Shown here piece after piece: positions 6,453 to 59,260 of a DNA stretch of 64,000 bases. Under the pieces are notes generated by a model that was not told the origin of the DNA, did not search any database, and was given only the letters and a program-made list of their open reading frames with translations. The stretch comes from Phormidium tenue FACHB-1052 (GTDB taxonomy: Bacteria > Cyanobacteriota > Cyanobacteriia > Phormidesmidales > Phormidesmidaceae), in the NCBI RefSeq assembly GCF_014696675.1, contig NZ_JACJQN010000024.1:1-64000 (forward strand). The letters are read 5' to 3'. Position numbers and translations under genes: made by a program. Positions within the stretch are counted from its first letter, which is position 1. Every line of letters begins with the position of its first letter.

Positions 6453-6463
6453 CACCTCTACCC

Positions 6464-7309: not shown

Positions 7310-7310
7310 A

Positions 7311-37111: not shown

Positions 37112-40100
37112 TTAAGTAGACTGACCCTGATCAATCCATTCATCAATCCAATGGGTTGATCCGGATTGAGTAATCTTTTGGATGCCATAGTTATAGTCAT
37201 GGTCGGGCTTTTCCTCATGGTCGGGATTTTCTCGTTTGGACTTTACTCGCACTGTGTCAGTCCATTGAAAGAGTGCTCGTCGGCGAACAATTTCCGTCCG
37301 CAAATCGTCAGGTTGCACTAGATCAACGATCGTAGGTGCTGCCCCCCATGCAAAACGCGCACACTCCACCACTGGTTTCTCGTTGAGAGTATGTTTCTTC
37401 AGCAATGCATAAGCAGCTTGCGGCAAAGGAATAACAGGCTCTGCTACAACATCCACGGTTAAAACAAGTATCTTTTCGGGCACAAAAATTTTCTTATTGT
37501 CAAGGACATATTCTGATTTTTTTAAGCTCAGTTTGATCAACAATTTATCCCCTGGAATAAGTTGAGAAGGGATTGAGGAGGATTGATCCTCAGACGAGCG
37601 CATCACAAACTGCGAGAGTTGCAATTGTAGTAATTGCTTCACTTTCAGGCGAACTGGTTCTATTAGAGGCACTTTGTTGCCATTCTTATCTAGCTTGCTG
37701 AAACTTAACTCGGCTGTTAATGGGAGTGAAGGTTCATCCGTAGTGGTTGCTTCTAAATCTTCATCGCGAGGTTCTGAGTAACACATCAGTGCCATAACTC
37801 CATCTGGGTTATAAGCCTTACGATCAGCCGCTAGAATCAGCGTATGTGGCTCAGGAGACTTCTCGCCTCCTCCTACCGTTTTCTCAACTTCCACTAAGGT
37901 GCTAGCACGAGCCGTAGATGAACTAAGGCGGCGGTTATACTCCGGATCTTCAAAGCAAATAAATCTCGGTTGCAAGGGTAGAGGTTGGCGACGGCGATCG
38001 CTTAACCGTAGCAAGAATGTCAAGCTCTGGTAAAAACCAGACTCATCCAGAGGGCTTCCAGGTGGGTAAACTCGTATCGTGGCAGTAAAGGATAAGCCAA
38101 CTGGACGGCTTAGAAAGCGTCGCAAGTCTTCCTTCTCTACTCTATCGTCTGGTAATTTGAACTGAACCTTAGAATTTTGCTCAGGGACTTGACCAGGTTC
38201 AATCTGGCTGTAGAAAAACTGCGTTGCGCCATCACTCAAAACTAAGTTACGGATATTCCAACCTGATACGCTCGGCTGAGAATCTGATTGGGCTTGAAGT
38301 TCAAACGTCAGTGTTCCATCCCAATCAACCGGAATTGCGCCAAATTCATGGGTTAATACCACTCTTAAACCTAAAGCTACTTGGGTAGAAGTCGCAGCGA
38401 TGAATGCAGTGGCGAATGGAGCAGGCTCAATTGACAAATCCTTTGTTGGTTCAAAGTAACTAGCCCACGTTCGCAATGCTTGATCCCGATCGTCGTTAGG
38501 AGGTAAAACAACAGGTCTGGGCACCCGATGCTGCACTGGCAGACTGCCAGAAGTCAGAATGTTTGTGCGGTTGTCTAGAAAGCTTTGGCGCAGAAGTTGA
38601 CTACGCATTGCTAGAAAAACCCCAGCTCTACTACCTAACAGCAGCATGGCAAAAGAGCCAGGTAGAATTGGCTGCCATAGGTTTTCTCCAGGTTGACTTG
38701 TTGTTCTGGAGGGATTTTCAGTGGAATCTTGAAGCGCAGTTTCTAGAGCTGACTGATCTGGCAACGGCAAATCAGGCAGCACTGGCAGTAAACTCTTAAT
38801 TGCCGGGGCACGGAATGAAGGAGGTAAACCAGCCGCATTCGGACGAAATTGAACCGATTGCTGCACCGCCTGCCACCATAGAACTGAAGGAACTAAGGAA
38901 TTGTCAGCAGGAGTAGCCCCAATTACAGCCGCCTCTGCTTCGGTATAACGGACAGCAATGCGAAGGGCACTTAATCCCCAAGGAATAGGCTGTGGCTTGG
39001 ATTGAGAATAAACTGGTTGAACCCCACAGATTTGTGGAGGAGCCAGTTCAAAATTGTGTAACGCATCAGAAACGATCGCTTGAGCATTATACTGCCCGTC
39101 ACGAAATCGAAGCTGGGTCGGTTCAGCCCGCAGTGCAAACATTTGTCGTTTTAGTGCAAACTTTGACTCTAGTTCCCCTAAGACCTTAAAGGCGTAGGTA
39201 GTCGTTAATGGAGCCGTCGTTAGTGGAGTTATTATGCTGGTGTCAGCATCAGCAAGGCTAATTTCCTCATTCAGCCGTCGCAGTCGCAGAACTGCAATTG
39301 GTGACTCCGGACAAAGTAGGGCATAGGTTTCTTTTGCCCATCGCTCGATTTGTTGTGTGATCGTTTCTTCTGCCTGGTATATGTCAAAACGATCGCTTCT
39401 CTCCCACACTGAGTAAAGAAGCTGTCCTTCTGTCCTAATCTCGTAATTAATACCAACCGTATCAATTTGTTGCCGTTTGACCTCAACGACCGTTTCATCT
39501 TGAATGACTGGAGCTTGAGAGCCTGATGTCTGATTGGCGCTTGTCGCTTTGATAATGACACCCGGCAATATCGATTGTGCTGAACCTTGTCCGGTATCAT
39601 CCTGTAAATTGAACCGATCGCTTTCTGTTCGAGAGACTTGTTGTTTTTGCAATTCCCAAGTGTAGGTTGTTACGTATTTGAGACTGCCAGTGGCAAGATC
39701 AAAGCAGACTAACTCTGCGGTAATGAGCTTGAGTTCGCGTCTCAGGCCGGCGGGTTGAAACGCCAAACTTAAATAGGGGCTAACTGCTAAACTCACAGGC
39801 ACAGGATTAAGTTTATCTTTAACCTTAAGTTTATCTTCAACCTTAAGTTGCGCCGGAATAGCGGTTGCTGCACTAAAGTAGAAATTGGTTTTATCTTCTA
39901 CAGCCTCAAATGCTTGCCGGAGTAGCAACCCTATAACAGCCCAACCATAGGGAATATCACTTAATTGCAAAGTATTACTAGACTGTAGTGTTAGCAGGCG
40001 ATCGGAACGCCACACCAACAACGAAGAGTCTACATCTACATCAGCGGAAGCAGATTGTGGCACCAGCGTGCGACGCGGATCGAAGGCTTGCTTGAGCGAT

Positions 40101-43100: not shown

Positions 43101-45586
43101 TCGTCAGTGTAAGGTAGATCAAATCGAAACTGTAGAAACAGCTCTGGGAGGAGGCTTGTGAAAGCAGTAGAATGCTCTCGATTTGGATCAAGAATCAGTC
43201 CAGGGAGCGACAAAGATACTAGTGGTAGGTCATTGAGGTTTTTCCACTCGTTGCTTGGCTTTAATGCGGTACTACTGTCAGTTAATTTGCACCACTGAGA
43301 TGCGCCTTCACTTCCAAATTGCCAGGAGGGTGCAGGCAGAGAAGTTCCTGCGTCCTCCACAATTTCTAGCTCAAATGGCGCTAGCTGTCGGCTGGCACTG
43401 GGATAATTTGGGGGAGACTGATTTTGAGTGAGTGGTAGCGATTGAATGAAGGGTAGATAAGGGTGGTGCAACCACAGTAGGGGCAGAGCTTTGAATGACG
43501 TTTTGGGAAGAACCTTTGCATCAATGAAACCTTGTAACGCTGCACGATCGATGCTGTAAGTAAATGACCATTCGTCCAGACTTGTTGCACCTTGCCGCTT
43601 AGGATGAGGGCGTAAATTCAACTGATCAAACTGAAGGAGCATTAGAGCAGGAAAAGGATCGTCGATCTGGGGAATGCGTAGGGGTATTGATTGTAAACCT
43701 GTGACCCAATTTTCCAGATTTGGAATAGCATCCTGGATAGTCGGTTGCCCTGTAGCGAGCCAAAAGAAACCATCCAATTGCGCTTTGGTTGCGCCAATAG
43801 TCAATTCAACTGAGTCAAGGTTCAGTTGACTGTCAGTTAGATCATTGGAGATCTCAAAGTTCCAAGAACCGTTGACATAGGCAGCATCTAAGAGACTAAA
43901 GCTCCACGGTTGTTCGTGAGTATCTTGATCAGTCTGAGTTGCCGCGACCTCATTGCTAAAAATAACTGCACCTTGTAGCAATGTTTGATTCAAATTTGAA
44001 GGACGCTTACCAGTCTGACCTTGCTGATCGCTTGTTCTTGCAAGTTGGGTATCAATATAAATTTGTTCACTAAGATTGGGAATTGGTAACTGTGCCCACC
44101 CATTCTCCAGCGGCATAAATCCCCATACAACAGCAGGTGCTATTGGAATCTCTGCTTTGGAGTCATCAGCACGCTTAAACCAAACTGGCTCTGACAATCC
44201 CTGCTTCTCTCGCAATAGTTGAGGAACTTCTACAGGACTGAAGGCGAGGGTGAGCGTACTTGATCCGGCTAAGGAAAGCTCTTCCTTATTAGAGGATTGA
44301 TTGCTATCAAACTTATAACGAAGATCACATACCTGTGGACTGTGTTGACCATGAGAACCGTTCGTGGCAGACAGAATCAGTTGAAACACATCATCTGTCC
44401 GTACAGGTTCAACTAGAACTGCAACTTCTAGAAACGAAGCGGGCGATCGGCTACTACGCTTTAATGACTGGTCTGCTAGCAGTAGCTTGGCAAGAAATTG
44501 TAGTTTGATCGAGACTTCAGCGTCAAGTTGATCAACATGCCAGTAGATATTGGGAATATCTTTTTTCCCAAGCTTCAGCAAATCAAGAGTAACCCACTGA
44601 GGTTCCTTTGAACCAGGGTTTGACAGCAGCTGTTGGAGCATCTGCCAAGCCTCCTGCCACTCTGACCTTTCTTCATACGTCATGCGTAGAGCATCGGGAA
44701 AAAGTTGACCTTTCGTAAACTGCTCTAGACCTTCACTGAAGATTGGTAAAAACTGAAAAGGTACATTCCGTCGATTATCTTTGCCTTGTAACCAGGGAAT
44801 CTCGACTGAACCAAATATGTTTAATCCACTGCTTCCTGCACTCACAGCACTGAGCAAACGAGCTAGATTCTTCTGATCAGGTTGAGATAAATTGCTAACT
44901 TGAGGGACACGATTTTGCAAATGGTCAGGTTCTTGACGTAATCCTAGAATGTCATAAAGGCGTTGCTGGGCATTAGTATCAGGAACTAACCCTTTTACCA
45001 GGTGAATTTCACCATTTGTGCAGGTGAAGGCAGGTGCTCCCGTAGCGGTCCATGCTTCCGGGTCAGATTCTAGTACAAGTAGAGAGAATTCACCATTTTG
45101 TTGATTCTCGATTAAAGCATCCAGCTTTGGAAAATCCGGAAAAGAGGTAGTTGGAATTCGGAGTATCCAACCAGGCTTAATCAAATCTTTATCAGAAATA
45201 ATGTCTCGATTGCCATCGAAAATCTTTTTATTCTGGCCTCGATCACCATAAAATTTCTCAGCAATGTCAGCTAACGATTCAACCTCTTCCCCTGACGATA
45301 TTTTCCGGGTTTTTACTGTATAAGCGACCCATTCTCGCACCCACTTCAGGTTCGCATCACCTAAGTTAATTTCCATCTGGGTTACGAAGCACAGTGCTTC
45401 TATGGTGCCTGAAAGATAAAGATTGTTGTGACCAATGGCTGATCGAGCAAAATTCTCGATTAGTAAGTTCCGGAATGCAAACTGTTCAGTGCTTGCACTC
45501 GGTCCACGCAATCGAATGAGCTTTGCATCCGCCTGCCAAAAAGGACCTTTGATCTTAATATTAGGCAACCCAGGAATAGTAGTCAT
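37112..45586 (-). CDS. Giant beta-rich protein 2 with a LysM-like domain (2,824 residues)
   Basis: I do not recognise the family. The N-terminus (IKGPFWQADAKLIRLRGPSA) has no signal peptide. A LysM-like domain lies at about 85-143 (SLADIAEKFYGDRGQNKKIF, DLIKPGWILRIP), of the kind seen in phage-tail and injection-system baseplate proteins and in wall-binding proteins. The rest is long alternating hydrophobic and polar sequence with many strand-like segments and no membrane helix or recognisable enzyme motif. Near the end, Lys/Pro-rich segments precede a charged tail. The start overlaps the stop of giant 1 (ATGA), so translation is coupled. The complete absence of stops over 8.5 kb indicates selection. 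A structural or binding role is inferred. Confidence 0.75.
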   Translation of the reverse strand: MTTIPGLPNIKIKGPFWQADAKLIRLRGPSASTEQFAFRNLLIENFARSAIGHNNLYLSGTIEALCFVTQMEINLGDANLKWVREWVAYTVKTRKISSGEEVESLADIAEKFYGDRGQNKKIFDGNRDIISDKDLIKPGWILRIPTTSFPDFPKLDALIENQQNGEFSLLVLESDPEAWTATGAPAFTCTNGEIHLVKGLVPDTNAQQRLYDILGLRQEPDHLQNRVPQVSNLSQPDQKNLARLLSAVSAGSSGLNIFGSVEIPWLQGKDNRRNVPFQFLPIFSEGLEQFTKGQLFPDALRMTYEERSEWQEAWQMLQQLLSNPGSKEPQWVTLDLLKLGKKDIPNIYWHVDQLDAEVSIKLQFLAKLLLADQSLKRSSRSPASFLEVAVLVEPVRTDDVFQLILSATNGSHGQHSPQVCDLRYKFDSNQSSNKEELSLAGSSTLTLAFSPVEVPQLLREKQGLSEPVWFKRADDSKAEIPIAPAVVWGFMPLENGWAQLPIPNLSEQIYIDTQLARTSDQQGQTGKRPSNLNQTLLQGAVIFSNEVAATQTDQDTHEQPWSFSLLDAAYVNGSWNFEISNDLTDSQLNLDSVELTIGATKAQLDGFFWLATGQPTIQDAIPNLENWVTGLQSIPLRIPQIDDPFPALMLLQFDQLNLRPHPKRQGATSLDEWSFTYSIDRAALQGFIDAKVLPKTSFKALPLLWLHHPYLPFIQSLPLTQNQSPPNYPSASRQLAPFELEIVEDAGTSLPAPSWQFGSEGASQWCKLTDSSTALKPSNEWKNLNDLPLVSLSLPGLILDPNREHSTAFTSLLPELFLQFRFDLPYTDEINALAQLPKLKLDKPQAGTLSFIGQPATDYETVPLSRDTSLEHWQQLANQASLAAADAVTALRQNNGSVTVQNLVQPYKWIVTPEFKLESYPGSFTLMEGSGSAALELKEDRSLGGITGSFQPDANRNLQYRGEDTSDPSLLRLIAGSLLAFGDEQGQLDQRGLYRQPTQVSEGAKLVTTNLQLIQKEIAEDANFISTTLKTPLKLRTIAEVDDWSLWFRDLPFKLKESSNGSSVSEPIYYFDWTFTRPDVEDSDFHHIFSQEDEADTNDPLALSRERNYLNGYEWRLWQRDGRPLDLCGLEFYPLTLWSAKRDLQQIQEVQILGRLQLPLAIPSEQEHIPSYVKVTFKLADGSDRLDLHAAEAFPSDTEQVWNLDSESNSNGGVPQLIWRQVRFDQSNQQLIFSNLALRFSLFGVSGKVSEPDEGELLFPFNSPNSTQTLTFQVTQSGSLALQALRITLQPPDYRVSAHLSVRLGRQSASAFAATLKVPILNESTENLWLEGTLFSALSLTSIDKPSLVEVGTKSLQFQWQDCTPLISGMQPPQVLPGMSLDTTQASGYCVIAFDVVGGVDQIPQFQVSAASLELLLPCKWGEFLQSSLSPSDPKQIFASSAGDLIVGYVGEGTTGSNRAELSWKESLLFNGFLEVRNLISWALSLKSDEPEFSLVVPAITSQSPNPNPQLNHTRHSIRILLNQHQLIPQIPLSGTDAILFDIHSDRPWQFLAVVEHQLVDVMLQDEQPELPLSNERRWTAVQEVRLCTPQGFKAFLESHNNQKMLDPSNGVIDISSATDGYLGTPIRSRLTDSELDQLGTTLLVEASAPHWLRLASIPQRESVTLQFLPDGCQMGILSDPDDFGVSDPVSPDWLLIITPFFGRLQQSPADGLETQAAQGQSLLQIDPILTLLRSRSQNRPLPELSLGLTHWAAGEEPQRISFSGFDTLACSRWSRLDPLSLRESWFRLQNPLSDSASQLLSNEKRSNPPLQSVTASLVDSPGRSSRPSSLKQAFDPRRTLVPQSASADVDVDSSLLVWRSDRLLTLQSSNTLQLSDIPYGWAVIGLLLRQAFEAVEDKTNFYFSAATAIPAQLKVEDKLKVKDKLNPVPVSLAVSPYLSLAFQPAGLRRELKLITAELVCFDLATGSLKYVTTYTWELQKQQVSRTESDRFNLQDDTGQGSAQSILPGVIIKATSANQTSGSQAPVIQDETVVEVKRQQIDTVGINYEIRTEGQLLYSVWERSDRFDIYQAEETITQQIERWAKETYALLCPESPIAVLRLRRLNEEISLADADTSIITPLTTAPLTTTYAFKVLGELESKFALKRQMFALRAEPTQLRFRDGQYNAQAIVSDALHNFELAPPQICGVQPVYSQSKPQPIPWGLSALRIAVRYTEAEAAVIGATPADNSLVPSVLWWQAVQQSVQFRPNAAGLPPSFRAPAIKSLLPVLPDLPLPDQSALETALQDSTENPSRTTSQPGENLWQPILPGSFAMLLLGSRAGVFLAMRSQLLRQSFLDNRTNILTSGSLPVQHRVPRPVVLPPNDDRDQALRTWASYFEPTKDLSIEPAPFATAFIAATSTQVALGLRVVLTHEFGAIPVDWDGTLTFELQAQSDSQPSVSGWNIRNLVLSDGATQFFYSQIEPGQVPEQNSKVQFKLPDDRVEKEDLRRFLSRPVGLSFTATIRVYPPGSPLDESGFYQSLTFLLRLSDRRRQPLPLQPRFICFEDPEYNRRLSSSTARASTLVEVEKTVGGGEKSPEPHTLILAADRKAYNPDGVMALMCYSEPRDEDLEATTTDEPSLPLTAELSFSKLDKNGNKVPLIEPVRLKVKQLLQLQLSQFVMRSSEDQSSSIPSQLIPGDKLLIKLSLKKSEYVLDNKKIFVPEKILVLTVDVVAEPVIPLPQAAYALLKKHTLNEKPVVECARFAWGAAPTIVDLVQPDDLRTEIVRRRALFQWTDTVRVKSKRENPDHEEKPDHDYNYGIQKITQSGSTHWIDEWIDQGQST

Positions 45587-48500: not shown

Positions 48501-51500
48501 GTTGAAATAGCAACTCAATATGCAGATGCTCAGCTATTTCAGCAGCAGGGGTGTTCTCAGCTTCTTTTCTAAGCTGTAATAATGCCTCAGTAATTCGTGG
48601 CAACAGTTCATCTCCTGCAAGAACTTTGCCGTCTGCTTTACGTAAACTGAATGTTACAGACAATCCGAATTGCTGTAAGATCCCCCAGCCATAGGGATCA
48701 GAAGCAGAGGCTGTACTTCTGGTAAATGCTGCAAAGTTACAAGGTTGTAAAGGTGGTACTGCTTGAACATCTACAATATATTCTTCACTCCCCTGTTCGT
48801 TTTTGCTGAATATCTCGATTAGCCTTTGAAGAACCCCGTGGAGGCGATCGCTCCGCTCAGTTGTTTTAACAAACTGTCCTTCTTGCCATTGCAACCAGGT
48901 GGGCCATACTAAATAGGACTCACGCCAGGAAGACCAGGCACCTAATGCTAAATTTGCTCCTTGACGACGTTCCTGATTACGAAGACGGCGCATTGTGCTG
49001 GGATACCAGGCTTCCCACTGTCCAGGATTAAGGGTGTCGCCTGGTTCTAATAACAGTTCATCATTGGGGATGAGTTGAACATCTTGAGTCAGGCGTATCG
49101 CTTTTGGTAACTGATCAACATCATCAAAAACAGAATCTGGATGAGCGTCAACATCGAGTCGGAATAGTTGATAGCCAGCGTGTAAGTCCAATGGATAATT
49201 GGGCTGACTACTGGGAGCAATATTCCAGCGATGACGAAGGCACCGAGTTCCTGATGGGTGAGGACTATACCCTATATTCGATAATTCCGGTTCAAACTTG
49301 AGTGATCGCTCAGGCAACGGCATCGGAAACCGAGCAATTCGTGTTGTATCTCCGGGAAAAGGAATGGTCCCATCATCAGTTGGATCACCCTTCTCATCGC
49401 GATGGTCTTTAGGCGGCAGCACCGGAAACACAAAGCGGTGATTTAGTATCCATTCCAGAGCTGCCGGACGGCGCTCCTCTAAAAATCGTTTTTCTTTATC
49501 CGTTTTTGGCTTTTCAAACTGTAGACGTAATCGTACTGGTGCAAGGGCTGAACTCACACCATTCCAGGACTCCGTTTGCAAGAAAACTCGCCATGCTTCC
49601 GGTCTCCAGGATAAATCAGCCCTGGGCAAAATGTTTTCATCTTTCAGATCATCGAGTTTGATATCAGTGCCCTTTCCTTCCTTGTCTTGCCCAGCATCAT
49701 TCGTAATGATTATTGATTCGATCGATGTACGGTCAATTTCAACCACAATATCAGTTGACAACTGACGGGCATTACTTGTTGGCAGTAACGTCTGCCGAGA
49801 CCCTTGAGTTTTGTTGTCTAACCCATAAGTGCCGATCGGTAACGTATTTTCTCGCCGGAAGATCAGCCGGTATTGATTGATGGGTACTTTAGGACCCCTT
49901 TGAGGAAGTGGTGGATCTGACCATTCAATCCGGCACCTAGCGGGTTGCCAAACGGCTAGTAAGTCCTTTGCGCTAAGACCAGAGCCAGGATCGCCCCAAA
50001 CTGGAATTTTATTACTAATATTTAGCTCTTCTGCATCGTAGGTAATGACTAATTCACCGTCTGTCGGTACAAGCGGTGGTGTATTTGGGTAGCGTGTGGC
50101 AAACAAGACAAGTGGCTTGTTACTTCGATGACCACTAAAGTCTACGGGAGTAATAACGTAGCGATAAGATATCCCCTCTGGTGGAATCGCCGCTTGTTCT
50201 TCTGCTGATTCTTGATTGAAGTGGTCAACAACTTGAAAACGAGGTTGCAAATGGATCAATTGATTCGATTCACGATGTAGAAGATCGCAGGGAGTGACTG
50301 TATAAATCTCATCCTGGTTGTCATTACTAAATCCATTCAGTGCTGTGCGACGCACCTCATAATGCTGAAGGTGGTGTCTTGGATCAGCTTGACATTGAGT
50401 TAAGCTTTGTCCGTTGGCACTGGAGGTGGTTGAAACTCGTGTGTCGTCCCAGCTTAAATTCCACCCCAAGGCGATCGTATTTGTATCGACTAATTGATGG
50501 ACTCGCTCGAATCGAGGTGGAGTTTCACTGAATCTTGTGATGCTCGGATTGAAAGTGCGAACGTTTCGTTTTTCTGAATCTTGAAGTGATTGATCTCCTA
50601 AGCGCTGGTGAATGGTTGGTGTCATGCTGTCGTCTGTCAGTTTCAGCAGCCAGTCTGGTGCGTTCTGTTTGGGCACCCGGAAGACTAAGCCCATTTGAAA
50701 AGCAACCGATCGCTGAATAATTTCAGTTCCTTGACCTTCGTCGCGACTACCATCAGGTTGCTCAACGGCTGCTACGTAGTCTCTTAAATCAGCAACCATA
50801 TCTTGAATAATGGTTCCCCGCAGTTGTAGTGCTTGTTGATTTTTTTGAGCTTCCGGAGTGCTTTGTCCATTTGTTTGGTTTACTGACGTAACTTGCCCAG
50901 TTTCTGAGTAGATGGTGGTGTTACTGTCAAGAGACCTATCTAATAAGCGATCGTATTCACTATTTTGCTGATCTCGCTTGAAATAAGGCGATCCCTGAAA
51001 TTGTGCAATTGCACCTCGAACGGCAGCTTCATAGGCATTATCTGAGGGACTAAAAACTCGTGGATCTTCAATTGATTTACTGCTTGGCAGCAGCTCTGGA
51101 TCTCCAAGTGCTTCTAGTGATTGTGTACTATCTCCAAATTGCTTGAAAATGAATGCATAGGCGAGATATTCCTTTAGGGAAATATCATCCCCTGCTACTG
51201 ATTCTTTCGAGAGAGTTCCGTTCTCAGCGATTTGATGTTCTACCGTTTCTTTTTCATCAGATTCTCCTTCCGAATTAGATATCACAATAGATGCCCAATT
51301 ACCTCGCCATGTTATTTGATTCGTTGACACAGATTGCCAAGTGCCAACTTCAGTAGCTACCTGAGCTTGTGATGGTTGGAATTTTTCCAAGCCAGAGATT
51401 GCTTCAAGCAGTGTCAGATCAAAATCCTCGCTTGAACTTTCTTTAGGTGGGGCAGGCAAAAATCCTTGTTCATGAGCAAACTCCTGATTGCTTGACTCAC

Positions 51501-54500
51501 CCTGAGGCAAGAGTAGGAAATAGACAAATCCCCCTTCTTTTTGCTCTGCCTGAGTCTCTAGAACAAAAGTGATGTAGTCTGGAGCATGAAACTTTGGTTT
51601 AACACTTTCACTCGTATCGTTAGCCACAACAGTAGTGTCAGTCGTATCATCTTCTATGAGATTCGTTGGGCTAGTTGTTGAACCATTACTGGTTAAGGTT
51701 GCAGGAGTGGTCACAGTTGACGGTATTCCAGTCAAGCTCATTTCATCCTCTGTGGGATTCGTTGGGCTGGCTGTTGAATCACTGGTTGAGGTTACAGGCG
51801 TGGTCACAGTTGACGGTGTTCCAGTCAAACTCATTCCCACAGCCCTACTTGAAGGACCTGCTGGCACAGATCGTCTTGTAGTACCTGCTGACATAACAGA
51901 TGCTCTTGGACGATCGACACCAGGTATCCCTTCAACATCCGTGGCTTCCAAGCCCATTTGGAGGAACTCAGATGTTTTTTCTTTCGCTTCCCGCAGCGCT
52001 CCCTCATTCAGTCCAAAACGAACGCTTAGCTGAAGACTATGACCCATTGCAGATACAGCTAAAGTGCCAGACCCAGATAACCCAGGTTCTAGATTATTTA
52101 AGCCAAACTCAACTCCTGCGGTGAAGCCAATTGTGGTACTAAGCCGAAAGGATTTAGTGATTTTCTTGAACAATAAATTAATCCGAATCCAAAATTCGAT
52201 GCTTAATTCAATGCGAGCTTCTAAACCAACAGCAGCATAGAACGCAGTCTCTAATTTTTTGGGTTGGGCATAGTTCCTTAAAACCCCGATATATCGTGCA
52301 CCGAAGGCAACACTGACTTCAGCACTGACCCGCGCACCAACAAATCCTAAATTGGCTTCTGCATCCAGTCGAAGTTGCCCTCTTGCCAGAATGCTGCTAC
52401 CGATGACAAGGTTCTGCCGCGAGATTCGGAAGATGAACCCACCGCGAACTTCCATGAGCAGTGGGCCTAAACGATCGCTCCAACGCAGCATATTGGGCCA
52501 ACCAAGCTCATAGTGAATCAACCCTGGTTCAACTAGAAGGGTGGCTGCAAACTGGCTGTTACGAACAGCTTTTTGGATAAAGTCTGGTAAGCGAGGGCGA
52601 TCGCCCAGGTAGCCATTTGGATTCGAGGAAACTTGTGCCAGAAAACGCTTCTGACGGGGTGAGAGGAGTGCAAAACCACTAAAAAGTGGTTTCTCTTTCA
52701 AGTTATCTCGGTTTTTGACGAAGGAATCATAGTTGGTATTTAGCCAACCTCTTACAGCCATGAAAAAAGTTAAGTCGCTGCGAAAAGCGATCACAGCATC
52801 AAAGAGGTAAGCGCAGGGTAGGTTCTCCTCTTTAACCTTGTCGTACTCTAGTGGAGAAACCGATGCCGAACTTTGAGCAATTAATGCACGTAAGGCAATT
52901 GTCCAGCGTGGATCTTGACCAGGTTCTTCTAAATCAATTGCCCACTGATCACGATTAGCAAGATTGCCTTGAGTTCTCGACAGCTTACGCAATTCGCCAA
53001 TCAGTCGCCGTAAATCGTTCTCGCGATCGGCGGCCTTGATACTAACCAGGGTGAACCGGTATCCAAAGCCCAACCCTATCTCGCGCAAATACAGCTCTAC
53101 GACAGGAACCCGGAAGCTAACCTGGCGCAGTTCAATATAAATAAACCAGGCTCGCAACCATTGAGACATTTCATCACGGCGCACCCGAAGAAAGGCAAAG
53201 CTCGCAGCAATGGGTGGCAGTCCCTGGATTGCCAGTGTACCCTCGCCGTCAAATCCTGTTTTGTTGGGGTCGTCATCATAGAAATTGACCACACCAGTAA
53301 GTTTGAAGGCTGCGCCAAAGTCTAGGCTAACTGCCAGTTGTTTGAAGTGGATGCGCGGCTTAAAGTCGCTGGGCTTGGGTAAACCAATTAACAAAGTATG
53401 GTAGTCGGGTTTAGGGTTGGGAGTATCGCCTACACCCTGAGCAAAGCGCAACTGCCCTGTAATCATCATTGCTCCATCATCCCCAAAAACTGCTGCCTGG
53501 GGCAGGAAGCCGATCGCCTTGACTTCCATCTCAAAGCAACCCAGAAAACTAAAAGTTTTGGGACTGGGTAAGTTGATGAGAAATTGTACGTATTGACTCA
53601 AAACACGGGCATTTCCGGTGATGGGGCATTCTACTAAATCGATGCGAATGAGTTGTAGAAGTGCCAATGGACCATTACTATCATCAGATGGTAATGGGAC
53701 AAATTGAGCGCTTCCAGTGAGCGTAAAGTAAAGATGATAGTGCCCATCATCAACAAACTTAAGCCCAAGTGCATTTACAGAGAATTGAAACCGAGTTCCC
53801 TGGCAAATCAAGGGCTTGTTCATTTGCAGTTCGGCACTACCCGTGACTAAGGCAAGCTTTTTCCGATCAACTTGCTTGAATTGTAGTGATATGTCTGCGA
53901 TCGCCTCTCCCACTAATGCTGGTGGTAAAGGTCCAGAACCATTCAATGTGAAATCACTAATCTGATTTTCCTTAATCTCTAACCGAGTATTTCGGAAACG
54001 GAAACGGGTATCTAAACTATTGAGCGTCACTGGGTCATCTGTGACTTCAGCACTCAAGCTAATACCTTTATCAGAGAGGATAAAATCACGAATCTTAAAA
54101 CGGATTGGCTCTTTACTAATTGCCGTGTATTCAAGCGTGAATTCTGTATTTGGAGCTTGTTGAAGCTGGTAATTATAATTCTGAGTGACGAGTGTAAAAA
54201 TATAAACCTTTTTTGCTAAATCTGGATCGGTTGCAGCATCCGGATGTTTATTGCGTCCCTGAAAACTCCAACTTAGTCCGAGGTGAGGGAGTTGTGGCTT
54301 TGCAAGCTCATCTATGTCGCCATAAAGTCTTATTCCCTCATCGTGATTGATAGAGAGCGCGAGAGTTCTTAAGTTGAGCTTGGCGGTAAAACTCGTTTTA
54401 AGTGCTATTTCACCAAATTGAACAAGTGCATCAAACTGAATTGGAATTTCCTCAAGTGGAATTTCGTCGTTGGTCGTTGATTTACTAAGTTGAACCTCAA

Positions 54501-56769
54501 CTTCTTTGAGACTATCAAGTCTGATGAATTGTTTAACGTCACCCTGCTGATTCAGGAACGGTAACGTCAACTGACCTAGCCGGAGTTTGAGTGTTCTCCA
54601 ATTATTTTGATTGATAAATTCTGACAGGTTGAAGTTTGTTCGAGAGCGGAGGACAGCGATTGCTTCTTGTTTTTGGTTTGAGTCTTGGGGATTAATTGCT
54701 GCTTCTAGAGCAGTGCTGAGGGTTGAGAGCGGAGTCTTCAGATCACGTAAAAAAGTGGGTAGCTTGGGGTTTAAGATGTCTTGGTTAATTGTAAAGCTAG
54801 CTAAACAAATACTGGTTTTGCGGTCAGTAGTTAATTCAATACTAAACAGAGGTTGATCTGTCTGAGGTCCCTCTTGAGGGCGATCGGATTGAAGTTCGCG
54901 CTCCACCACGTTACCCGTCGGACGCTGCCAAGCAAAGTTACTTTGCAACTTTATTACTTGCCCAGGTTCTAGAGTCAGCACTAAGTTGGCAGAATTCAGC
55001 CGGGACGAGTTTTGGGCTTCTCCTGCTTGTCCAGCACCTAGCAGGAGACTGAATTGTCCAGTACCCGGCAACTGAATGGAGAATCCTGGTAAATCAAAGC
55101 GGCGATCGCTCCCAGCAATTTCCCAATCAAGGCGAATTTTCTGAATTGGGTTCGGTGAAAACCAATCGAATAGGATACGGAGTAGAGCATTGGAAACTGA
55201 ACGGTTGCCTTTTTCCAGGAAATTGGGCACTAGGCGGTTGAGCCAGTAGTTGACCTGTTCTTCCTGCCATGCCACCACCAAACATTGATGATCGAGATAG
55301 GCTTTATTGATGCCAATACGCTCGCGCAGGTCAGCATTGGGCGCATTGCGATCGAAGTAGGAACTCTCTGGATTGGAATCGAGATTGCCCTGTTGAAATT
55401 GGAGTTGGAGCTTACCTGCGATCGCAGATTCTAACAAGGCTGGACTGGCAATGCGAAGCCCTTCGACGACAAAGGTGCTGGTGCCTGCACTGAAGTTGAA
55501 CTCGGCTTGTTCCCAGCTCAGTGCGAAGAATTGTCCCAGAACTAGAGATGTGGCTCCGGCATCCACAATCAGGCGATAGGTTTGAGGTGCTTCACCTGCT
55601 GAAGGTGCACCTTTCAGGAGAAAATTCGCTGTAACTTGAAACTGCTGAACTTCCAAGCGTGTTTCTGATGGATTGCCAATTAGTAAGGCACACCCTTCTT
55701 CGTTAGGAAGTTTAATGAATTGTAGAGTCGCACTTGCCTCTGGCGGCAGGGGGGATGAGTCAGTCACCCAGGTAGGAGTGCCAGGGATGATTTGCCCGCT
55801 GCTATCTAAACCAGGAAAACCAATTGCAAAAGCAGTTACGGTATCTGTCCATTGCCAGCGGATTAACCATTGCTTCAGCAACAATTCAGCATTGGCATTT
55901 GGGCCGAAGGGAGCAATTACAACACCGAGATTTCCAGGAGTCGGAGGGGAAACGGCAACGGTGGCTCCAATCGCTTGATTTTGCTCATTGACAGCAATAA
56001 TGAACGTGATCAGATCTTCTCCTAACTTCAGCCCAAAGTTATCAACTGCACCGGCAAAGATAGACTTGTCGTCTTCAGCGATACCGGGTAAGGCACCAAT
56101 ATTTAATTCTTCTGCGATCGCGGCTAAACGAGGCAATAGGCGATCGCGAATTGCAGTCGTTTGAGTCTCACTTCCTAATTCTGATGGTATGCAGTGATAA
56201 ACGCGAGCTACCTCAGCAAAGGGGTTTCTGAAGAACTGTCCGAGTCGCTGGAGATTTACCTGGGGGCGACTGTGGGGAAGCCGCAGCAGCAGCCGATTCT
56301 CTACAACAACACTACTTTCAGCTTGCGCGTCAGTGAACGTGATCAACTCTGCGATAACTGCAACGGCATAAAGTTGAGGTTGCCACTGTCGTAAGTAGGT
56401 TGTGAATAATAACGCAATCAGGTCGCGACCAATTTGCTCAAACTGGGGTGGTGGTAAGCTTGGTGGCTCAATAATTCCCTGTAAATCATCCTGGAGCGAT
56501 CGCAGTAAGTTTCTACTATCTTGAGCGATCGTTAGTAACTCTTCTAATGTTGCTTCAGAAGTTGTTGATAACGTTTCAATACGAGTTTTTAGTTCAGCAA
56601 AAGTATTGAGAACTTGAGTTAATTTCACTCTGGAAAAGCCAGGAATCTGCTCCAAGTCCCAACCGATTGTTTGAAACAGCAGCTTTTGGCTGTCAGGACT
56701 ATTGGCAGCAGCAAGGGGAGAAATTAGATAGGTAAGCTGCTGTAGAACAGTCGCATATAAGCTGGGCAT
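45583..56769 (-). CDS. Giant multidomain beta-rich protein 1 (about 3,728 residues)
   Basis: I do not recognise the family as a whole. The first 250 residues are helical. Residues to about 1,600 are strand-rich, with a block like large DUF6603-type proteins (comparison from memory, unverified). A Ser/Thr-rich linker with a tandem duplication spans about 1,640-1,710. Fibronectin-like sandwich segments follow from about 2,080 (ALGWNLSWDD, HYEVRRTAL, ISYRYVITPVDFSGHRSNKP). Three helical repeats of the form L.W.G.m......L.......f..al..L close the protein (about 3,510-3,720). No signal peptide or clear membrane helix is seen. GGAG lies 10 nt before ATG 56769, which I prefer to an ATG at 56826 inside the phosphoesterase gene. 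It is 7 bp after that gene and overlaps giant 2 by 4 nt. Confidence 0.75.
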   Translation of the reverse strand: MPSLYATVLQQLTYLISPLAAANSPDSQKLLFQTIGWDLEQIPGFSRVKLTQVLNTFAELKTRIETLSTTSEATLEELLTIAQDSRNLLRSLQDDLQGIIEPPSLPPPQFEQIGRDLIALLFTTYLRQWQPQLYAVAVIAELITFTDAQAESSVVVENRLLLRLPHSRPQVNLQRLGQFFRNPFAEVARVYHCIPSELGSETQTTAIRDRLLPRLAAIAEELNIGALPGIAEDDKSIFAGAVDNFGLKLGEDLITFIIAVNEQNQAIGATVAVSPPTPGNLGVVIAPFGPNANAELLLKQWLIRWQWTDTVTAFAIGFPGLDSSGQIIPGTPTWVTDSSPLPPEASATLQFIKLPNEEGCALLIGNPSETRLEVQQFQVTANFLLKGAPSAGEAPQTYRLIVDAGATSLVLGQFFALSWEQAEFNFSAGTSTFVVEGLRIASPALLESAIAGKLQLQFQQGNLDSNPESSYFDRNAPNADLRERIGINKAYLDHQCLVVAWQEEQVNYWLNRLVPNFLEKGNRSVSNALLRILFDWFSPNPIQKIRLDWEIAGSDRRFDLPGFSIQLPGTGQFSLLLGAGQAGEAQNSSRLNSANLVLTLEPGQVIKLQSNFAWQRPTGNVVERELQSDRPQEGPQTDQPLFSIELTTDRKTSICLASFTINQDILNPKLPTFLRDLKTPLSTLSTALEAAINPQDSNQKQEAIAVLRSRTNFNLSEFINQNNWRTLKLRLGQLTLPFLNQQGDVKQFIRLDSLKEVEVQLSKSTTNDEIPLEEIPIQFDALVQFGEIALKTSFTAKLNLRTLALSINHDEGIRLYGDIDELAKPQLPHLGLSWSFQGRNKHPDAATDPDLAKKVYIFTLVTQNYNYQLQQAPNTEFTLEYTAISKEPIRFKIRDFILSDKGISLSAEVTDDPVTLNSLDTRFRFRNTRLEIKENQISDFTLNGSGPLPPALVGEAIADISLQFKQVDRKKLALVTGSAELQMNKPLICQGTRFQFSVNALGLKFVDDGHYHLYFTLTGSAQFVPLPSDDSNGPLALLQLIRIDLVECPITGNARVLSQYVQFLINLPSPKTFSFLGCFEMEVKAIGFLPQAAVFGDDGAMMITGQLRFAQGVGDTPNPKPDYHTLLIGLPKPSDFKPRIHFKQLAVSLDFGAAFKLTGVVNFYDDDPNKTGFDGEGTLAIQGLPPIAASFAFLRVRRDEMSQWLRAWFIYIELRQVSFRVPVVELYLREIGLGFGYRFTLVSIKAADRENDLRRLIGELRKLSRTQGNLANRDQWAIDLEEPGQDPRWTIALRALIAQSSASVSPLEYDKVKEENLPCAYLFDAVIAFRSDLTFFMAVRGWLNTNYDSFVKNRDNLKEKPLFSGFALLSPRQKRFLAQVSSNPNGYLGDRPRLPDFIQKAVRNSQFAATLLVEPGLIHYELGWPNMLRWSDRLGPLLMEVRGGFIFRISRQNLVIGSSILARGQLRLDAEANLGFVGARVSAEVSVAFGARYIGVLRNYAQPKKLETAFYAAVGLEARIELSIEFWIRINLLFKKITKSFRLSTTIGFTAGVEFGLNNLEPGLSGSGTLAVSAMGHSLQLSVRFGLNEGALREAKEKTSEFLQMGLEATDVEGIPGVDRPRASVMSAGTTRRSVPAGPSSRAVGMSLTGTPSTVTTPVTSTSDSTASPTNPTEDEMSLTGIPSTVTTPATLTSNGSTTSPTNLIEDDTTDTTVVANDTSESVKPKFHAPDYITFVLETQAEQKEGGFVYFLLLPQGESSNQEFAHEQGFLPAPPKESSSEDFDLTLLEAISGLEKFQPSQAQVATEVGTWQSVSTNQITWRGNWASIVISNSEGESDEKETVEHQIAENGTLSKESVAGDDISLKEYLAYAFIFKQFGDSTQSLEALGDPELLPSSKSIEDPRVFSPSDNAYEAAVRGAIAQFQGSPYFKRDQQNSEYDRLLDRSLDSNTTIYSETGQVTSVNQTNGQSTPEAQKNQQALQLRGTIIQDMVADLRDYVAAVEQPDGSRDEGQGTEIIQRSVAFQMGLVFRVPKQNAPDWLLKLTDDSMTPTIHQRLGDQSLQDSEKRNVRTFNPSITRFSETPPRFERVHQLVDTNTIALGWNLSWDDTRVSTTSSANGQSLTQCQADPRHHLQHYEVRRTALNGFSNDNQDEIYTVTPCDLLHRESNQLIHLQPRFQVVDHFNQESAEEQAAIPPEGISYRYVITPVDFSGHRSNKPLVLFATRYPNTPPLVPTDGELVITYDAEELNISNKIPVWGDPGSGLSAKDLLAVWQPARCRIEWSDPPLPQRGPKVPINQYRLIFRRENTLPIGTYGLDNKTQGSRQTLLPTSNARQLSTDIVVEIDRTSIESIIITNDAGQDKEGKGTDIKLDDLKDENILPRADLSWRPEAWRVFLQTESWNGVSSALAPVRLRLQFEKPKTDKEKRFLEERRPAALEWILNHRFVFPVLPPKDHRDEKGDPTDDGTIPFPGDTTRIARFPMPLPERSLKFEPELSNIGYSPHPSGTRCLRHRWNIAPSSQPNYPLDLHAGYQLFRLDVDAHPDSVFDDVDQLPKAIRLTQDVQLIPNDELLLEPGDTLNPGQWEAWYPSTMRRLRNQERRQGANLALGAWSSWRESYLVWPTWLQWQEGQFVKTTERSDRLHGVLQRLIEIFSKNEQGSEEYIVDVQAVPPLQPCNFAAFTRSTASASDPYGWGILQQFGLSVTFSLRKADGKVLAGDELLPRITEALLQLRKEAENTPAAEIAEHLHIELLFQPGRSVELQSTGANPTALLAIVQLSLRPYPKQRLQYSTIMIRGFAGSQIDVEIELAGRWSLINQADSANGQQESSADKTKVDFKVTLPPSGVANLLLRSEILSGPKELPKFRIIKFTYDQSEKANEALTNLATEPDLNLSNLPSESVMTHKILVTDARTAYFATSPDNLANAFSQPPVPDTEGLSDTSQQWQRFKNYIESLNSNDPDLDPKQFKIAIPTDEAGLKQFLQEDFLGWSQRFFDFCGDINQTEVTTLDKPWVATAYPKTGSPTYAAPDDGGRITYDELIEDRYAHAYRYFAHPYGRYDLLLDSLRQSFALFSEALFPERSLPIPKVGGLDIVLHRTEPISMPLVLSSRRLDPVVPEGQSVVPGTTWEVIIARHLEQSLSERNQTLVRHLSFRQIAFTLLRRFSDRELSDDLEEVFGKRPVIQPVQTYPEREIAIPQEYPARPVEVRSTQEERLSLDLPARIGDFQQGAVVLQWQGLPFYYEHRLLLIAQSSTTVSAINKITQRDFEYQAPSPIGASLSAIDNDSLSNLRTRQVKLPLQRLWDSLPPAAKGRWAVEDPANASGEGRYYSSLPDLDVVYQFVELFSGNVEVQGEVFCDRKTQSSASDKSDFQHRQLGQRLLLNITAKQAPTTPPEDYYLTITLEQVTEQSLKCTYDLNQLSNADAALKQKLLNSTLSTLKIKNDLTINEVEKIVGIANGTAQEQEQDRKALQAIAADWMSEAPISITLPDSALSGLPDHLKQRVQTIDAPNSILVWEGGMTEVVRQQIKARAGSALLQNALKMLSDITPPPRPTQQDLPDALRERLEISLQALRWHGATPNNVEKLALRNLKVESQALDAKFKAAIDALIERAGDNRDTAAVTEVLLPIIQPTQLSVTGLLETAAADLPDELLIANALIRFQGLMTLTDLASLQTLYPDKRDRLALRRLYTTALNRGLNGRALYLRTRRGSAAPSPLIPLEPLLMPLP
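51661..51837. repeat. Tandem duplication of about 93-96 bp in the Ser/Thr-rich linker of giant 1
   Basis: Units begin at 51661 and 51757 with ATTCGTTGGGCT and share GTGGTCACAGTTGACGGT. They encode two copies of a MSLTGxPSTVTTPxTxTS linker. The second unit lacks one codon relative to the first. Such linkers change length easily without harming flanking domains. Confidence 0.85.
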
Positions 56770-56776
56770 CAGTTCA

Positions 56777-59260
56777 TCACTCCACGGAGATCTCTGGTCT
56801 GGGATAATCAGCATTTTCAAAATCAAGAGGCACCTGATAAGTTGTGCGAATCGGTAATACTGTCGCTGGATTGATTCGAGCGTCTTCCCACCAATACAAC
56901 ACTTGTCTCACTTGCAATTGACCGTCATCTAGAAAGCTGATTTCGCCCAGATTGTTCAAGCCGACCAGTTGCCGACCTGCACCCAAGTCACGGGTGTAGC
57001 TTTGGTGATTCCTAGCCATCATGCTGTGTTGCTGAAGCAAGGCACTACGGTCTGATGTACTAGGATCTGCCACTGGTTTAATTTTGCTAGGGTCAGGAGC
57101 CTCTTTATCTCCCTTAATAAAATCAATTCGATACATCCAATCTGGTTGACTGGCATTTTTGACGGTGTAATTGACTTGGCTGGATAGCTTTTCAACTGCT
57201 GGACTTTCTTGAATCAGCCAATCGGCACTTATACCGGGGAAAAAGACCTTTTCCCCCACCACATTTCCGCTCTGATTTTCCCAAGCAACAAAACTTCTGC
57301 TGCGGCTGAGCGGGACAATAACTGCTCCAGCCCAGTGGAGATTATAAGTACTACTGAATAGCTTGCTAGGTCTCCACCAGCCTTCTCTCGTTTCGTTTCT
57401 GAGTGCGCTAGAGGTAAGTTGAGCCATAACCAGTTGGGCTTCTTGACTTAGCTCATCTTGCTCGAAAACTTTATCTGCCCAGTACTGAAACCGAGTGGCA
57501 AATCCATAGTGAACATCGCCTGACAGCAAAACTGCTCGACCTTGCTGATTTCCCTGACGTGTAGAAATTCTAGCGATCAATCTTTCAAAGGTTTTCCTGT
57601 CTAAGCTCCAGGCTTCTGTATCAGTCTTATATTTATTCTCTAATTGAGTCTCCCGTTGCTGTGTGTCTTCAATTAGCGGTAGCCCAAGAACCGGAGTCGC
57701 AGTAATCACTAGCAGTAGCTTGGCCGCAGTTGCATCATCAACGGGAAGCTGTTTGCTAAAGCCATCTTCACTAATCAAAGCTGGAAAACTTTCTGCCGTG
57801 CCTGGATAGGCACGCCAAGTACGGGAGTCTAACACCAAAACTTCATAGTTATGGTCAAGAAAGCTGAGCATGTAGTGCCAGCTAAGCGACTGGGGTTCAT
57901 GAGAGAGCTGGGGTAGACCGGGATGATTTTTGATGCTGTCTAGAGTGGGTAAACTAACGCACGTTGCAATCTCTTGATCAGTTTCAGTCCATTTGTCTTC
58001 CAAAATACGATCGCTAACCAGTTGCAACAGTCGAGCACCGGGTTGACCCGCTACAAACTGTTCAGGCGTATTTCCCCAAGCTTGAAAGATGGCATAGGCA
58101 GTTAAACCATTCAACAATACTCGCTGACCCAAGGGTTTATCTAAAACACTTTCGCACCAGGCAAGGTTGAGAAACCAGTCATCTGTAATTTCATGATCAT
58201 CCAGAATCATGTAGGTAGGAATGTTTGCCAATGCCCGCCGCACTGCTGATAAGGTTGACTTTAGCGTGAGCAACTGGTTTTTTTCTTTGGTGTATTGTTC
58301 GAGAGCTTTGGAAGAAACTTCGATCGGGGTTGAAGCACGATCGCCTGTTACGTTACGCAAACTCTTCAATCTGGTTGGAGAGGTGGGTTGGTCATACACC
58401 ATCTCAAAGCTGGGGATATCTGCATCGTTCTGGAACCATAAAACATCTGACCAAACGAACAGATACATGACGAAGAACTCACCTAACCGCAACAGATGAC
58501 TTTTGGAAATGCCTTCATCAGTGGTGAAACCACATTGGTTACGGGCTAACTCGTCGCGCTTTCCTGGCTTTAGAATCTCTGGTGATGTATTGGGCAAGGG
58601 TTCCTGATGACCGAGGAGGGCGGCATTTGCATCGTCTAGGAGGTATAACAACACATCAGCTACGTCATCGGCATAAATTTGGTCGCCGGTCAAAAACAGT
58701 TGCTGCGGGCGTGATGGCGGAGTAAGGTTGGTGCGATCGACAGCCGCTTGAATTAAGGCATCGATCTGTGCCATAGCGTCTACCCCTTCTGCATGGGACT
58801 TCCGACAGGATGCATGAAGCAGATGCAGATCCTTGAGGTCTCTTGGAGGTAAAACAAAACTTGGCAAGGGCAGGTCTAATTTTGGATAGGCGATCGCTTC
58901 TGTGGAACCAGATGCATCAATCACGTTGGGGCTTTGCAGAGTTTGACCACCACCAAAGTCGAAGTTGTAGAGGTAGGTTTGACCTGGAATGAGTGCATCG
59001 CCACTGGCTGGTGCTGCTGTTCCTCTAGTTTTGGCGGTCACTGTGACAATATGCAGATTTGTTCCAAGCGCTGTTGTCTGGCTTTCACCCACCAATACGT
59101 CTTGTTGCAACAAATCGAGAATTTTGAGGCGAACTGTTTTTTGTTCTTCTTTCAATGCTACCCAAACGGAAACTGAGTTTGGCTCGGTGCGTCGCAGTAT
59201 CGGTCCTGCCAGTACCAAGGGCAGTTGATTGATACGATTTAGCAGCGAGTTAAAAGGCAC
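56777..59260 (-). CDS. PhoD-like metallophosphoesterase, cytoplasmic
   Basis: An 827-residue PhoD-like protein. An N-terminal beta-sandwich (PLVLAGPILRRTEPNSVSVW, about 15-120) precedes the phosphoesterase domain with metal-binding motifs LTGDQIYADD (192-199), MILDDHEITDDW (353-361) and LLSGDVHYGF. VLVLDSRTWRAYP is also family-typical. It lacks the Tat signal of classical PhoD, so it should act in the cytoplasm. PhoD-type enzymes hydrolyse phosphomono- or phosphodiesters, using Fe/Ca or similar metals. Its substrate here is unknown. It is the first of three packed genes, followed after 7 bp by giant 1 (start 56769). Its start lies 2 bp past the NACHT leader fragment. Confidence 0.88.
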   Translation of the reverse strand: MPFNSLLNRINQLPLVLAGPILRRTEPNSVSVWVALKEEQKTVRLKILDLLQQDVLVGESQTTALGTNLHIVTVTAKTRGTAAPASGDALIPGQTYLYNFDFGGGQTLQSPNVIDASGSTEAIAYPKLDLPLPSFVLPPRDLKDLHLLHASCRKSHAEGVDAMAQIDALIQAAVDRTNLTPPSRPQQLFLTGDQIYADDVADVLLYLLDDANAALLGHQEPLPNTSPEILKPGKRDELARNQCGFTTDEGISKSHLLRLGEFFVMYLFVWSDVLWFQNDADIPSFEMVYDQPTSPTRLKSLRNVTGDRASTPIEVSSKALEQYTKEKNQLLTLKSTLSAVRRALANIPTYMILDDHEITDDWFLNLAWCESVLDKPLGQRVLLNGLTAYAIFQAWGNTPEQFVAGQPGARLLQLVSDRILEDKWTETDQEIATCVSLPTLDSIKNHPGLPQLSHEPQSLSWHYMLSFLDHNYEVLVLDSRTWRAYPGTAESFPALISEDGFSKQLPVDDATAAKLLLVITATPVLGLPLIEDTQQRETQLENKYKTDTEAWSLDRKTFERLIARISTRQGNQQGRAVLLSGDVHYGFATRFQYWADKVFEQDELSQEAQLVMAQLTSSALRNETREGWWRPSKLFSSTYNLHWAGAVIVPLSRSRSFVAWENQSGNVVGEKVFFPGISADWLIQESPAVEKLSSQVNYTVKNASQPDWMYRIDFIKGDKEAPDPSKIKPVADPSTSDRSALLQQHSMMARNHQSYTRDLGAGRQLVGLNNLGEISFLDDGQLQVRQVLYWWEDARINPATVLPIRTTYQVPLDFENADYPRPEISVE

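Follow-up and report, generated by a model that had tools for sequence, protein, structure and literature searches.

Do the PhoD-like phosphoesterase gene and the two giant genes that adjoin it in the cyanobacterium Phormidium tenue FACHB-1052 form one system, and what could such a system do? The genes lie in a stretch of 64,000 nucleotides (contig NZ_JACJQN010000024.1, positions 1 to 64,000), which we call the window, and a first-pass annotation of it had proposed a phosphoesterase working with a giant apparatus. We found that the giants, here called giant 1 (G1) and giant 2 (G2), are a real, recurrent and apparently undescribed module as judged from their sequences, and that the enzyme position beside them varies, with PhoD more aptly regarded as one of its occupants. 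Of the earlier proposal, the giant apparatus stood as a recurrent pair and the phosphoesterase did not prove constant.

The open reading frames (ORFs) bore out the three-gene layout described earlier, in sizes, orientation and spacing. All three genes share one orientation, with a 7-bp gap between the stop codon of PhoD and the ATG of G1 and a 4-bp overlap between G1 and G2; an alternative TTG start at 56826 would extend G1 to 3,747 amino acids (aa; ORF 45583-56826). The frames of the giants are open throughout, as had been stated, and this is not chance, because the two alternative frames of each giant hold 166-294 stops per frame. By simple hydropathy neither the PhoD-like protein nor G1 nor G2 has an N-terminal hydrophobic segment, in agreement with the earlier remark that the giants lack a signal peptide. 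Neither window giant had a useful Pfam match, and PADLOC 2.0 returned no family at E 0.1 for any of the three proteins. Scans with NCBIfam, PHROGs and PADLOC covered the window proteins only, while Pfam covered the window giants, 18 G2 proteins and 12 G1 proteins. Gene starts across loci are our own simple and uncurated calls, in which the first start codon was chosen.

Used as a query, G2 matched nothing in 291 other cyanobacterial genomes, and a G2 pattern scan of genome contigs was also empty, probably because the G2 patterns are too variable. G2 did weakly match a Rhizobium plasmid, and directly before that match stood another giant. The middle part of G1 matched 11 plasmids, and the core alignment A1 then matched 32 genome-contig loci, a count that rests on two short patterns and is a lower bound. 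We used 27 of these 32 (left aside were L022, a duplicate of pRLN3, the short contigs L026, L042 and L043, and L044, a second partial copy), which together with the window and the plasmids made 39 loci. Neorhizobium L011, with fragmented genes, was excluded from the neighbour tables, leaving 38 loci there. The copy in L044 is a second, partial G1 of Pseudomonas rubra on another contig.

G1 was present in all 39 loci and G2 in 38, the exception being cut by a contig end. Where the arrangement was measurable (37 of 38 loci), the two genes lay on the same strand with G1 first and either overlapped or left a gap of at most 289 bp; large overlaps reflect the choice of the first start codon. In Neorhizobium both giants are fragmented yet keep the same order. 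A single open frame was found for G1 in 38 of 39 loci and for G2 in 35 of 38, and in two plasmids G2 lay in two adjacent pieces, in Undibacterium (L003:26877-34531) and in Rhizobium ruizarguesonis (L009:27502-35744). These two may be natural splits or sequencing errors. Family members measure roughly 3,200-4,200 residues (G1) and 2,200-3,100 residues (G2), and the integrity of frames over about 17-21 kb implies selection. The earlier claim of an undescribed module containing the giants thus held up. A literature search of titles and abstract starts returned no description of such giants; it did not cover subscription papers, and a prior description is possible. Relative to known families the giants are categorically new, and the function given to them below is hypothetical.

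Giant-bearing hosts span seven phyla, and several of the records are metagenome bins. The closest relatives belong to Actinomycetota, Chloroflexota, Bacteroidota and another cyanobacterium, with best-segment identities to the window G1 core of 61% (Kribbella), 59% (Anaerolineae), 57% (Saprospiraceae) and 57% (Nodosilinea). More distant were Planctomycetota (51%) and Verrucomicrobiales (46%), and most others were Proteobacteria at 30-38%. In cyanobacteria the core is rare: it was found in 1 of 386 genomes, the window's own. A tree of the core grouped the window with Anaerolineae, Kribbella and Saprospiraceae (support 0.755), followed outward by Nodosilinea (0.997), Planctomycetota (1.0) and Verrucomicrobiales (0.998). 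The mixing of host phyla is as expected from horizontal transfer, and the pair has probably moved in this way. We consider it unusual for a gene pair of about 20 kb to move as a unit between phyla, and the cost of such a pair implies a strong benefit. A viral or phage origin was also considered and rejected: no match was found in phages or, with the two short patterns, in viral contigs, and apart from the LysM region described below there was one marginal PHROG match only.

We then asked how the PhoD-like gene relates to this pair. Its product (P0001) passed the gathering cut-off of Pfam PF09423 (E 1.8e-8, 34.4 bits against a cut-off of 27); a looser whole-genome search gave no PhoD match for it, and its best match among PDB sequences, to a dehydrogenase, had an E of 0.53. 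The protein carries the motifs GDQIYAD, DDHE and GDVHY. In an alignment of 24 sequences, that of the window included, their key G, D and H residues are conserved in 23-24, and we take GDQ (by its G and D), DDH and GD.H to be the metal-site motifs of PhoD. P0001 is predicted to be a PhoD-like phosphatase, as had been proposed.

The subfamily of P0001 had matches in 26 of the 244 cyanobacterial genomes searched, the window's own included. G1, G2 and DUF6603 were not found near 20 other cyanobacterial PhoD loci (10-18 kb each); tblastn of PhoD at E 1e-4 over 44 giant loci found no relative; and Pfam on 56 same-strand adjacent proteins, for families with at least two members, listed no second PhoD. 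Among the loci seen, PhoD adjoins the giants in the window only, which rules out a fixed three-gene system. Its role as a constant partner had to be given up, and the giants occur mostly without PhoD neighbours, which the first-pass annotation had itself named as the finding that would tell against its idea.

PhoD is nevertheless unlikely to stand beside the giants by chance, because the same subfamily directly precedes DUF6603 (PF20248) genes elsewhere, in 3 of 14 DUF6603 loci (L106, L129 and L130). DUF6603 genes were found in 5 of 246 genomes of Kribbella's phylum and in 13 plasmid records; the 14 loci are L104-L108 and L129-L137, with the wrong frame called in L107, where a PhoD could be missed. 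The PhoD-like gene before DUF6603 is 33% identical to P0001 over 540 aa (E 6e-59) in the actinobacterial L106, 40% identical on a Salinigranum haloarchaeal plasmid, with a 4-bp overlap, and 31% identical in Streptomyces longwoodensis, at 117 bp. The DUF6603 frame of L130 was missed by the gene caller and rests on the record annotation and a tblastn match. In another cluster, L105, a peptidase M64 holds the position of PhoD. The PhoD subfamily has thus come to occupy equivalent positions in both kinds of cluster, which gives the DUF6603 clusters a testable functional hint.

Membership of G1 itself in DUF6603 was not upheld. In 3 of 27 genomes the G1 core contained sub-threshold DUF6603 matches, and 1 of 11 core members matched at E 7.7e-4. 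The profile passed its gathering cut-off in none of the 27 G1 genomes and gave no such match in the window's own; hhalign of the G1 core against DUF6603 reached a probability of only 7%, and pieces of G1 or G2 had no match at E 0.05 to proteins of the DUF6603 clusters. Homology between G1 and DUF6603 is not established at the sequence level. No paper in the literature searched contained "DUF6603". On three haloarchaeal plasmids (L129, L131 and L132) a protein of 2,300-3,100 residues, annotated with a BGTF surface domain in two and as hypothetical in one, lies at some distance after a DUF6603 cluster.

Other enzymes take the place beside the giants elsewhere. The 56 same-strand adjacent proteins came from 34 of the 38 loci, and a hydrolase or effector-like enzyme (E <0.001) adjoined the giants in about 17 of 38, the window PhoD included. 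Among them were a phage lysozyme in a Saprospiraceae locus (E 1.2e-6), a PLD domain in a Kribbella locus (E 1.3e-14), M23 peptidases (E 6.3e-6 and 2.4e-19), Amidase_6 in two loci (E 6.6e-7), Tae4 in PBB3 and, fused to SLOG, in two further loci (E 1.7e-10 and 7.6e-12), YkuD on a Bradyrhizobium plasmid (E 2.3e-8), Peptidase_C70 in three loci (E 6.2e-22 and 9.7e-11), a trypsin (E 2.7e-12) and a glutamine deamidase (Gln_deamidase_2, E 1.2e-27). The second gene of the locus on R. leguminosarum pRLN3 is M23 by record annotation. In Ruegeria an M23-type protein scored 26.7 bits against a cut-off of 28.7, and relatives of it occupy the corresponding position in Roseovarius, Rhodovulum and Bradyrhizobium diversitatis, the last having no Pfam match of its own. 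The assignments for Tardiphaga, RBC080, Sinorhizobium chiapasense and the third M23 member were made from Pfam member counts and BLAST clusters, not from individual tables.

To set these numbers against a background, we scanned 135 distant control genes, a random sample of 433. C70, M23, Tae4 and Amidase_6 together accounted for 11 of the 56 adjacent proteins against at most 4 of the 135 distant ones (p 0.0003), and the enrichment remained after near-identical loci were merged (p 0.012). "At most 4" reflects that 25 of 170 control families were shown, including all with at least two members, and none of the four families was among the latter. We read the enrichment as support, not proof. Two further kinds of neighbour were seen. 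A gene of about 600 aa (L048:7482-9320 and relatives, cluster c2) adjoins the pair in 6 loci, is oriented divergently from G1 in most of them and is split into two shorter pieces in L006; a single member was searched, which gave no Pfam match and only chance-level PDB matches, as did one Verrucomicrobiales neighbour. In L069:8885-12827, right after the SLOG-Tae4 gene, an OLD-like ATPase frame is followed by a UvrD-like helicase frame, a likeness to a Gabija pair noted by eye.

What the giants themselves might do was approached through models. The conserved core of G1 (Table 1) is supported by alignments A1 and A3 and by a profile match. An AlphaFold2 model of G1 residues 640-1660 (m21dfe0b882c4, 28 sequences), with a mean predicted local distance difference test (pLDDT) score of 77.6, was mainly beta, and its last part consisted of antiparallel strands of up to 26 residues. 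In residues 1440-1620 the beta-type hydrophobic moment exceeded the threshold in a median of 20% of windows, compared with 1.5% in shuffled sequence, and it was above shuffled in 39 of 39 G1 proteins; medians in three other parts of G1 were 1.8-2.9%. G1 therefore carries a conserved, strongly amphipathic beta stretch. Foldseek placed LptD at the top of its list, with ApoB and a pilus usher among the top matches and MTP far down. VIA on the core model gave porins at Z 12-14 over about 240 residues with a root-mean-square deviation (rmsd) of 13-15 Å, and its alignment of ApoB100 covered the greater part of the core (Z 11.9, 480 residues, rmsd 38.5). We regard these fold matches as likenesses of architecture rather than as family matches, and the hydrophobic-moment result as the firmer evidence. 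The core profile had only chance-level matches, to SAS-6, among PDB sequences, and a viral fold library gave three matches below 0.001 whose query TM-scores of 0.06-0.11 led us to leave them aside. WD40-type repeats occurred in 1 of the 12 scanned G1 proteins.

The first-pass annotation had also reported a LysM-like domain in G2. It is present in the window, where NCBIfam PRK11198 (E 9e-9, far below the model's full-length cut-off) and PHROG 21966 (E 1.4e-8) and the endolysin PHROG 380 (E 9.5e-7) matched at the same place; Pfam showed no LysM in residues 102-146. Reading a 40-row G2 alignment by eye, we saw no comparable segment in any other row, and LysM as the core function of G2 was dropped as a candidate since it was seen in the window only. 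Laminin_G_3 occurred in 3 of the 18 scanned G2 proteins. G2 thus occasionally accepts inserts of binding type. A model of G2 segment 440-1200 had a pLDDT of 73.6.

Table 1. Coordinates of the giant genes, their parts and adjoining genes in the window
Feature	Position	Strand	Description
PhoD-like metallophosphoesterase (P0001)	56777-59260	-	GTG start, 827 aa, no N-terminal hydrophobic segment
Giant 1 (G1)	45583-56769	-	Beta-rich, 3,728 aa from ATG
Conserved G1 core	51916-54123	-	About 735 residues (window residues about 900-1640); most conserved part of the giants by block conservation
Amphipathic long-strand beta meander in G1	51967-52509	-	Residues about 1440-1620, TTG numbering
Giant 2 (G2)	37112-45586	-	2,824 aa
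LysM domain of G2	45146-45316	-	Residues 102-146, near N-terminus
DUF1304 small protein	36608-36988	-	PF06993 E 2.2e-25; N-terminal hydrophobic segment by hydropathy; 123 bp after G2

The reading that we favor, at a probability of about 0.42, is that G1 and G2 form a horizontally spread two-giant apparatus, made in the cytoplasm, that works with an exchangeable enzyme and serves to deliver or release it. Directly observed are the pairing and order of the giants, their spread over phyla, a changing set of adjacent enzymes enriched in peptidoglycan hydrolases and proteases, the amphipathic stretch of G1 and the occasional inserts of G2. In its favor, too, hydropathy showed no clear N-terminal hydrophobic segment in 39 G1 and 40 G2 sequences, fragments included, nor in any of the named enzymes but the trypsin. 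The usual export route to peptidoglycan is therefore not apparent, and enzymes aimed at peptidoglycan or at another cell need another way out. The mechanism we infer for such a device would run as follows. The giants would get out of the cell through lysis or in some other way; G2 may help to bind the target envelope by means of inserts such as the LysM of the window and the laminin-G-type domains elsewhere; the amphipathic beta sheet of G1 may meet or enter a membrane; and the neighbouring enzyme would be the payload acting on the target, the PhoD-like protein of the window being one cargo among many. Many of the neighbouring enzymes are of kinds that agree with the earlier suggestion of conflict or envelope biology. 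A more specific version, in which exchangeable carbohydrate-binding inserts of G2 aim a broadly mobile two-protein delivery machine, the G1 sheet breaches the membrane, the swapped enzyme is the payload and the DUF6603 clusters, also found in haloarchaea, are a second, smaller version, seems to us doubtful.

Several observations weigh against enzyme delivery or release by the giants. We selected the enzyme families with the list already in view, which makes the p-values optimistic. In 21 of 38 loci the adjacent genes gave no hydrolase or effector-type match at E 0.001 (weaker signals of NlpC/P60, CHAP or PG_binding are present in 3 of the 21), 4 of 38 lack any same-strand gene next to the giants, and unrelated immediate neighbours occur (a molybdenum hydroxylase, a thiamine pyrophosphate (TPP) enzyme, a transposase). 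The place of the enzyme varies as well, before G1 or after G2 and sometimes as the second gene. The trypsin has a signal-like N-terminus, and a CHAP-like neighbour in L062 has an N-terminal hydrophobic stretch. Outer-membrane barrels match the G1 core model only loosely, too loosely for membrane insertion by G1 to be more than a proposal. For the G2 model no fold match reached significance (best Foldseek E 0.023, best VIA Z 3.1; the RHS shell 4igl, at E 0.028, was not significant either), and the giants have no homologue of known function.

Two other explanations are close rivals. It is possible, if unlikely, that the wall-cutting neighbours are release factors and no payload, the giants forming an extracellular complex freed by programmed lysis of the producer. 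The absence of N-terminal hydrophobic segments from the giants and the lysozyme, M23 and amidase domains near them fit this, and there is a precedent in the Tc toxin of Yersinia entomophaga, whose release needs a phage-like lysis cassette (PMC10847046). Against it, lysis is not the usual work of PhoD, PLD, C70 protease, trypsin or glutamine deamidase, and a release factor would hardly seem to call for so much variation of the enzyme from locus to locus. No holin was recognized, though no search was aimed at holins.

The second is intracellular defence, in which the giants would detect an invading phage or plasmid and activate an enzyme that kills the host. Several of the loci are on plasmids and have defence genes nearby (multiubiquitin/ThiF and Avs1c in L003, AbiEi/AbiEii in L010, AbiEii in L008, CHAT and ATP-binding genes in L006, STAND/NACHT genes in the window), and SLOG is fused to Tae4. 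We think this quite unlikely, as neither PhoD nor the window giants matched PADLOC, the Pfam matches of the 18 G2 and 12 G1 proteins include no NTPase or nucleic-acid domain, and peptidoglycan-aimed enzymes would be useless in the cytoplasm without export.

The NACHT genes of the window had been reported on both sides of the giants, and recurrence beside such genes had been named as something that would support a system. On the low-coordinate side Pfam found NPHP3/NACHT-type NTPase domains in 30730-35136 and 28198-30393; the gene on the other flank, 59487-63965, had no such domain at E 0.001 and is related to the low-side genes by BLAST cluster, so the claim stands for one side by Pfam and for the other by relationship only. 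Recurrence was not seen, since among the loci examined the flanking family (cluster 42) has members in the window only. Elsewhere, STAND-type matches among the 56 adjacent proteins were scarce and of low significance (3 with NPHP3_N and 2 with nSTAND3, best E 6e-4, members unattributed), and NACHT occurred in 2 of the 135 distant control genes. A partnership of the giants with NACHT genes is not supported.

It would be a long shot for the giants to be lipid-handling or envelope-surface proteins, with a long lipid-carrying beta sheet as in ApoB/MTP and the enzymes as incidental plasmid genes. The amphipathic stretch of G1, the LptD and MTP matches and the ApoB100 alignment along most of the core all suit such a role, but the rmsd to ApoB is far too large for homology, wall-acting enzymes are enriched beside the giants, and the patchy distribution across phyla is unlike that of an envelope housekeeping gene. 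A role for the giants as cargo or accessory parts of a contractile injection machine, either a type VI secretion system (T6SS) or an extracellular contractile injection system (eCIS), is very improbable: Pfam names Tae4 a T6SS effector family, and among 28 giant-bearing genomes T6SS VipB was matched in 13 and a phage-type sheath in 11 (9 over cut-off, the window's genome among the 11), but such a machine does not seem required because 11 of the 28 match neither, some matches perhaps being hidden by incomplete assemblies, and the annotated plasmid loci, many of whose products are only hypothetical, name no sheath, tube or baseplate product.

Several other genes of the window are worth recording. 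The link of the DUF1304 gene to the giant module is unproven. Downstream of G2, 35203-35976 (-) encodes a 257-aa protein that looks catalase-family-like by eye, with no Pfam match. The earlier observation of an insertion sequence in a neighbour probably holds: a STAND/NPHP3-type NTPase gene with repeats at 24744-30393 seems to be broken by an IS66 transposase at 26276-27643, with repeat-like frames on both sides by eye. At 21305-24727 (+) lies a possible TrwC-type relaxase, inferred from one of the 135 controls that matched TrwC at 7e-83. Two overlapping, out-of-phase frames of 283 and 919 aa at 14229-17803, NB-ARC-like and with WD40 repeats, are by eye apparently one frameshifted gene. A Mu-type transposase C-terminal domain (656 aa), a TniB/AAA protein (281 aa) and a 175-aa protein that is TniQ-like by eye, without a Pfam match, make up a Tn7/Tn5053-like element at 5928-9281 (-).

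If delivery or release by the two giants is correct, it would be a new bacterial way to deliver or release enzymes, with natural swapping of cargo. Whatever their role, their strict partnership, their conserved core and the lack of a recognized core domain make the giants a clear target for structural work.

Compared with known systems, the giants resemble Tc (ABC) toxin complexes in being very large proteins. Tc toxins are released by lysis enzymes and not by a classical secretion system (PMC10847046). The giants differ in that the 18 G2 and 12 G1 proteins had no Tc or RHS domain in Pfam at E 0.05 and that the enzyme is a separate gene beside the giants. With T6SS and eCIS effector modules they share adjacent effector-type families such as Tae4, whereas the annotated plasmid neighbourhoods of the giants, with their many hypothetical products, name no contractile machinery. 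The long antiparallel amphipathic strands of G1 recall outer-membrane barrels, LptD and ApoB, but at an rmsd of 13-15 Å for porins and 38 Å for ApoB, and G1 has no N-terminal hydrophobic segment. The PhoD-like protein belongs with cyanobacterial PhoD-like phosphatases of the same subfamily, which keep its motifs and whose 20 other loci have no giants nearby. Polymorphic toxin systems swap toxin domains together with cognate immunity genes; beside the giants a change of the adjacent enzyme was seen. The DUF6603 clusters of Actinomycetota, haloarchaea and Proteobacteria are built from several-fold smaller proteins (783-1,532 aa by our own gene calls) and are like the giants in having a large protein followed by further large proteins on the same strand; 9 of their 14 loci are on plasmids, and an exchangeable gene stands in front, as beside the giants.

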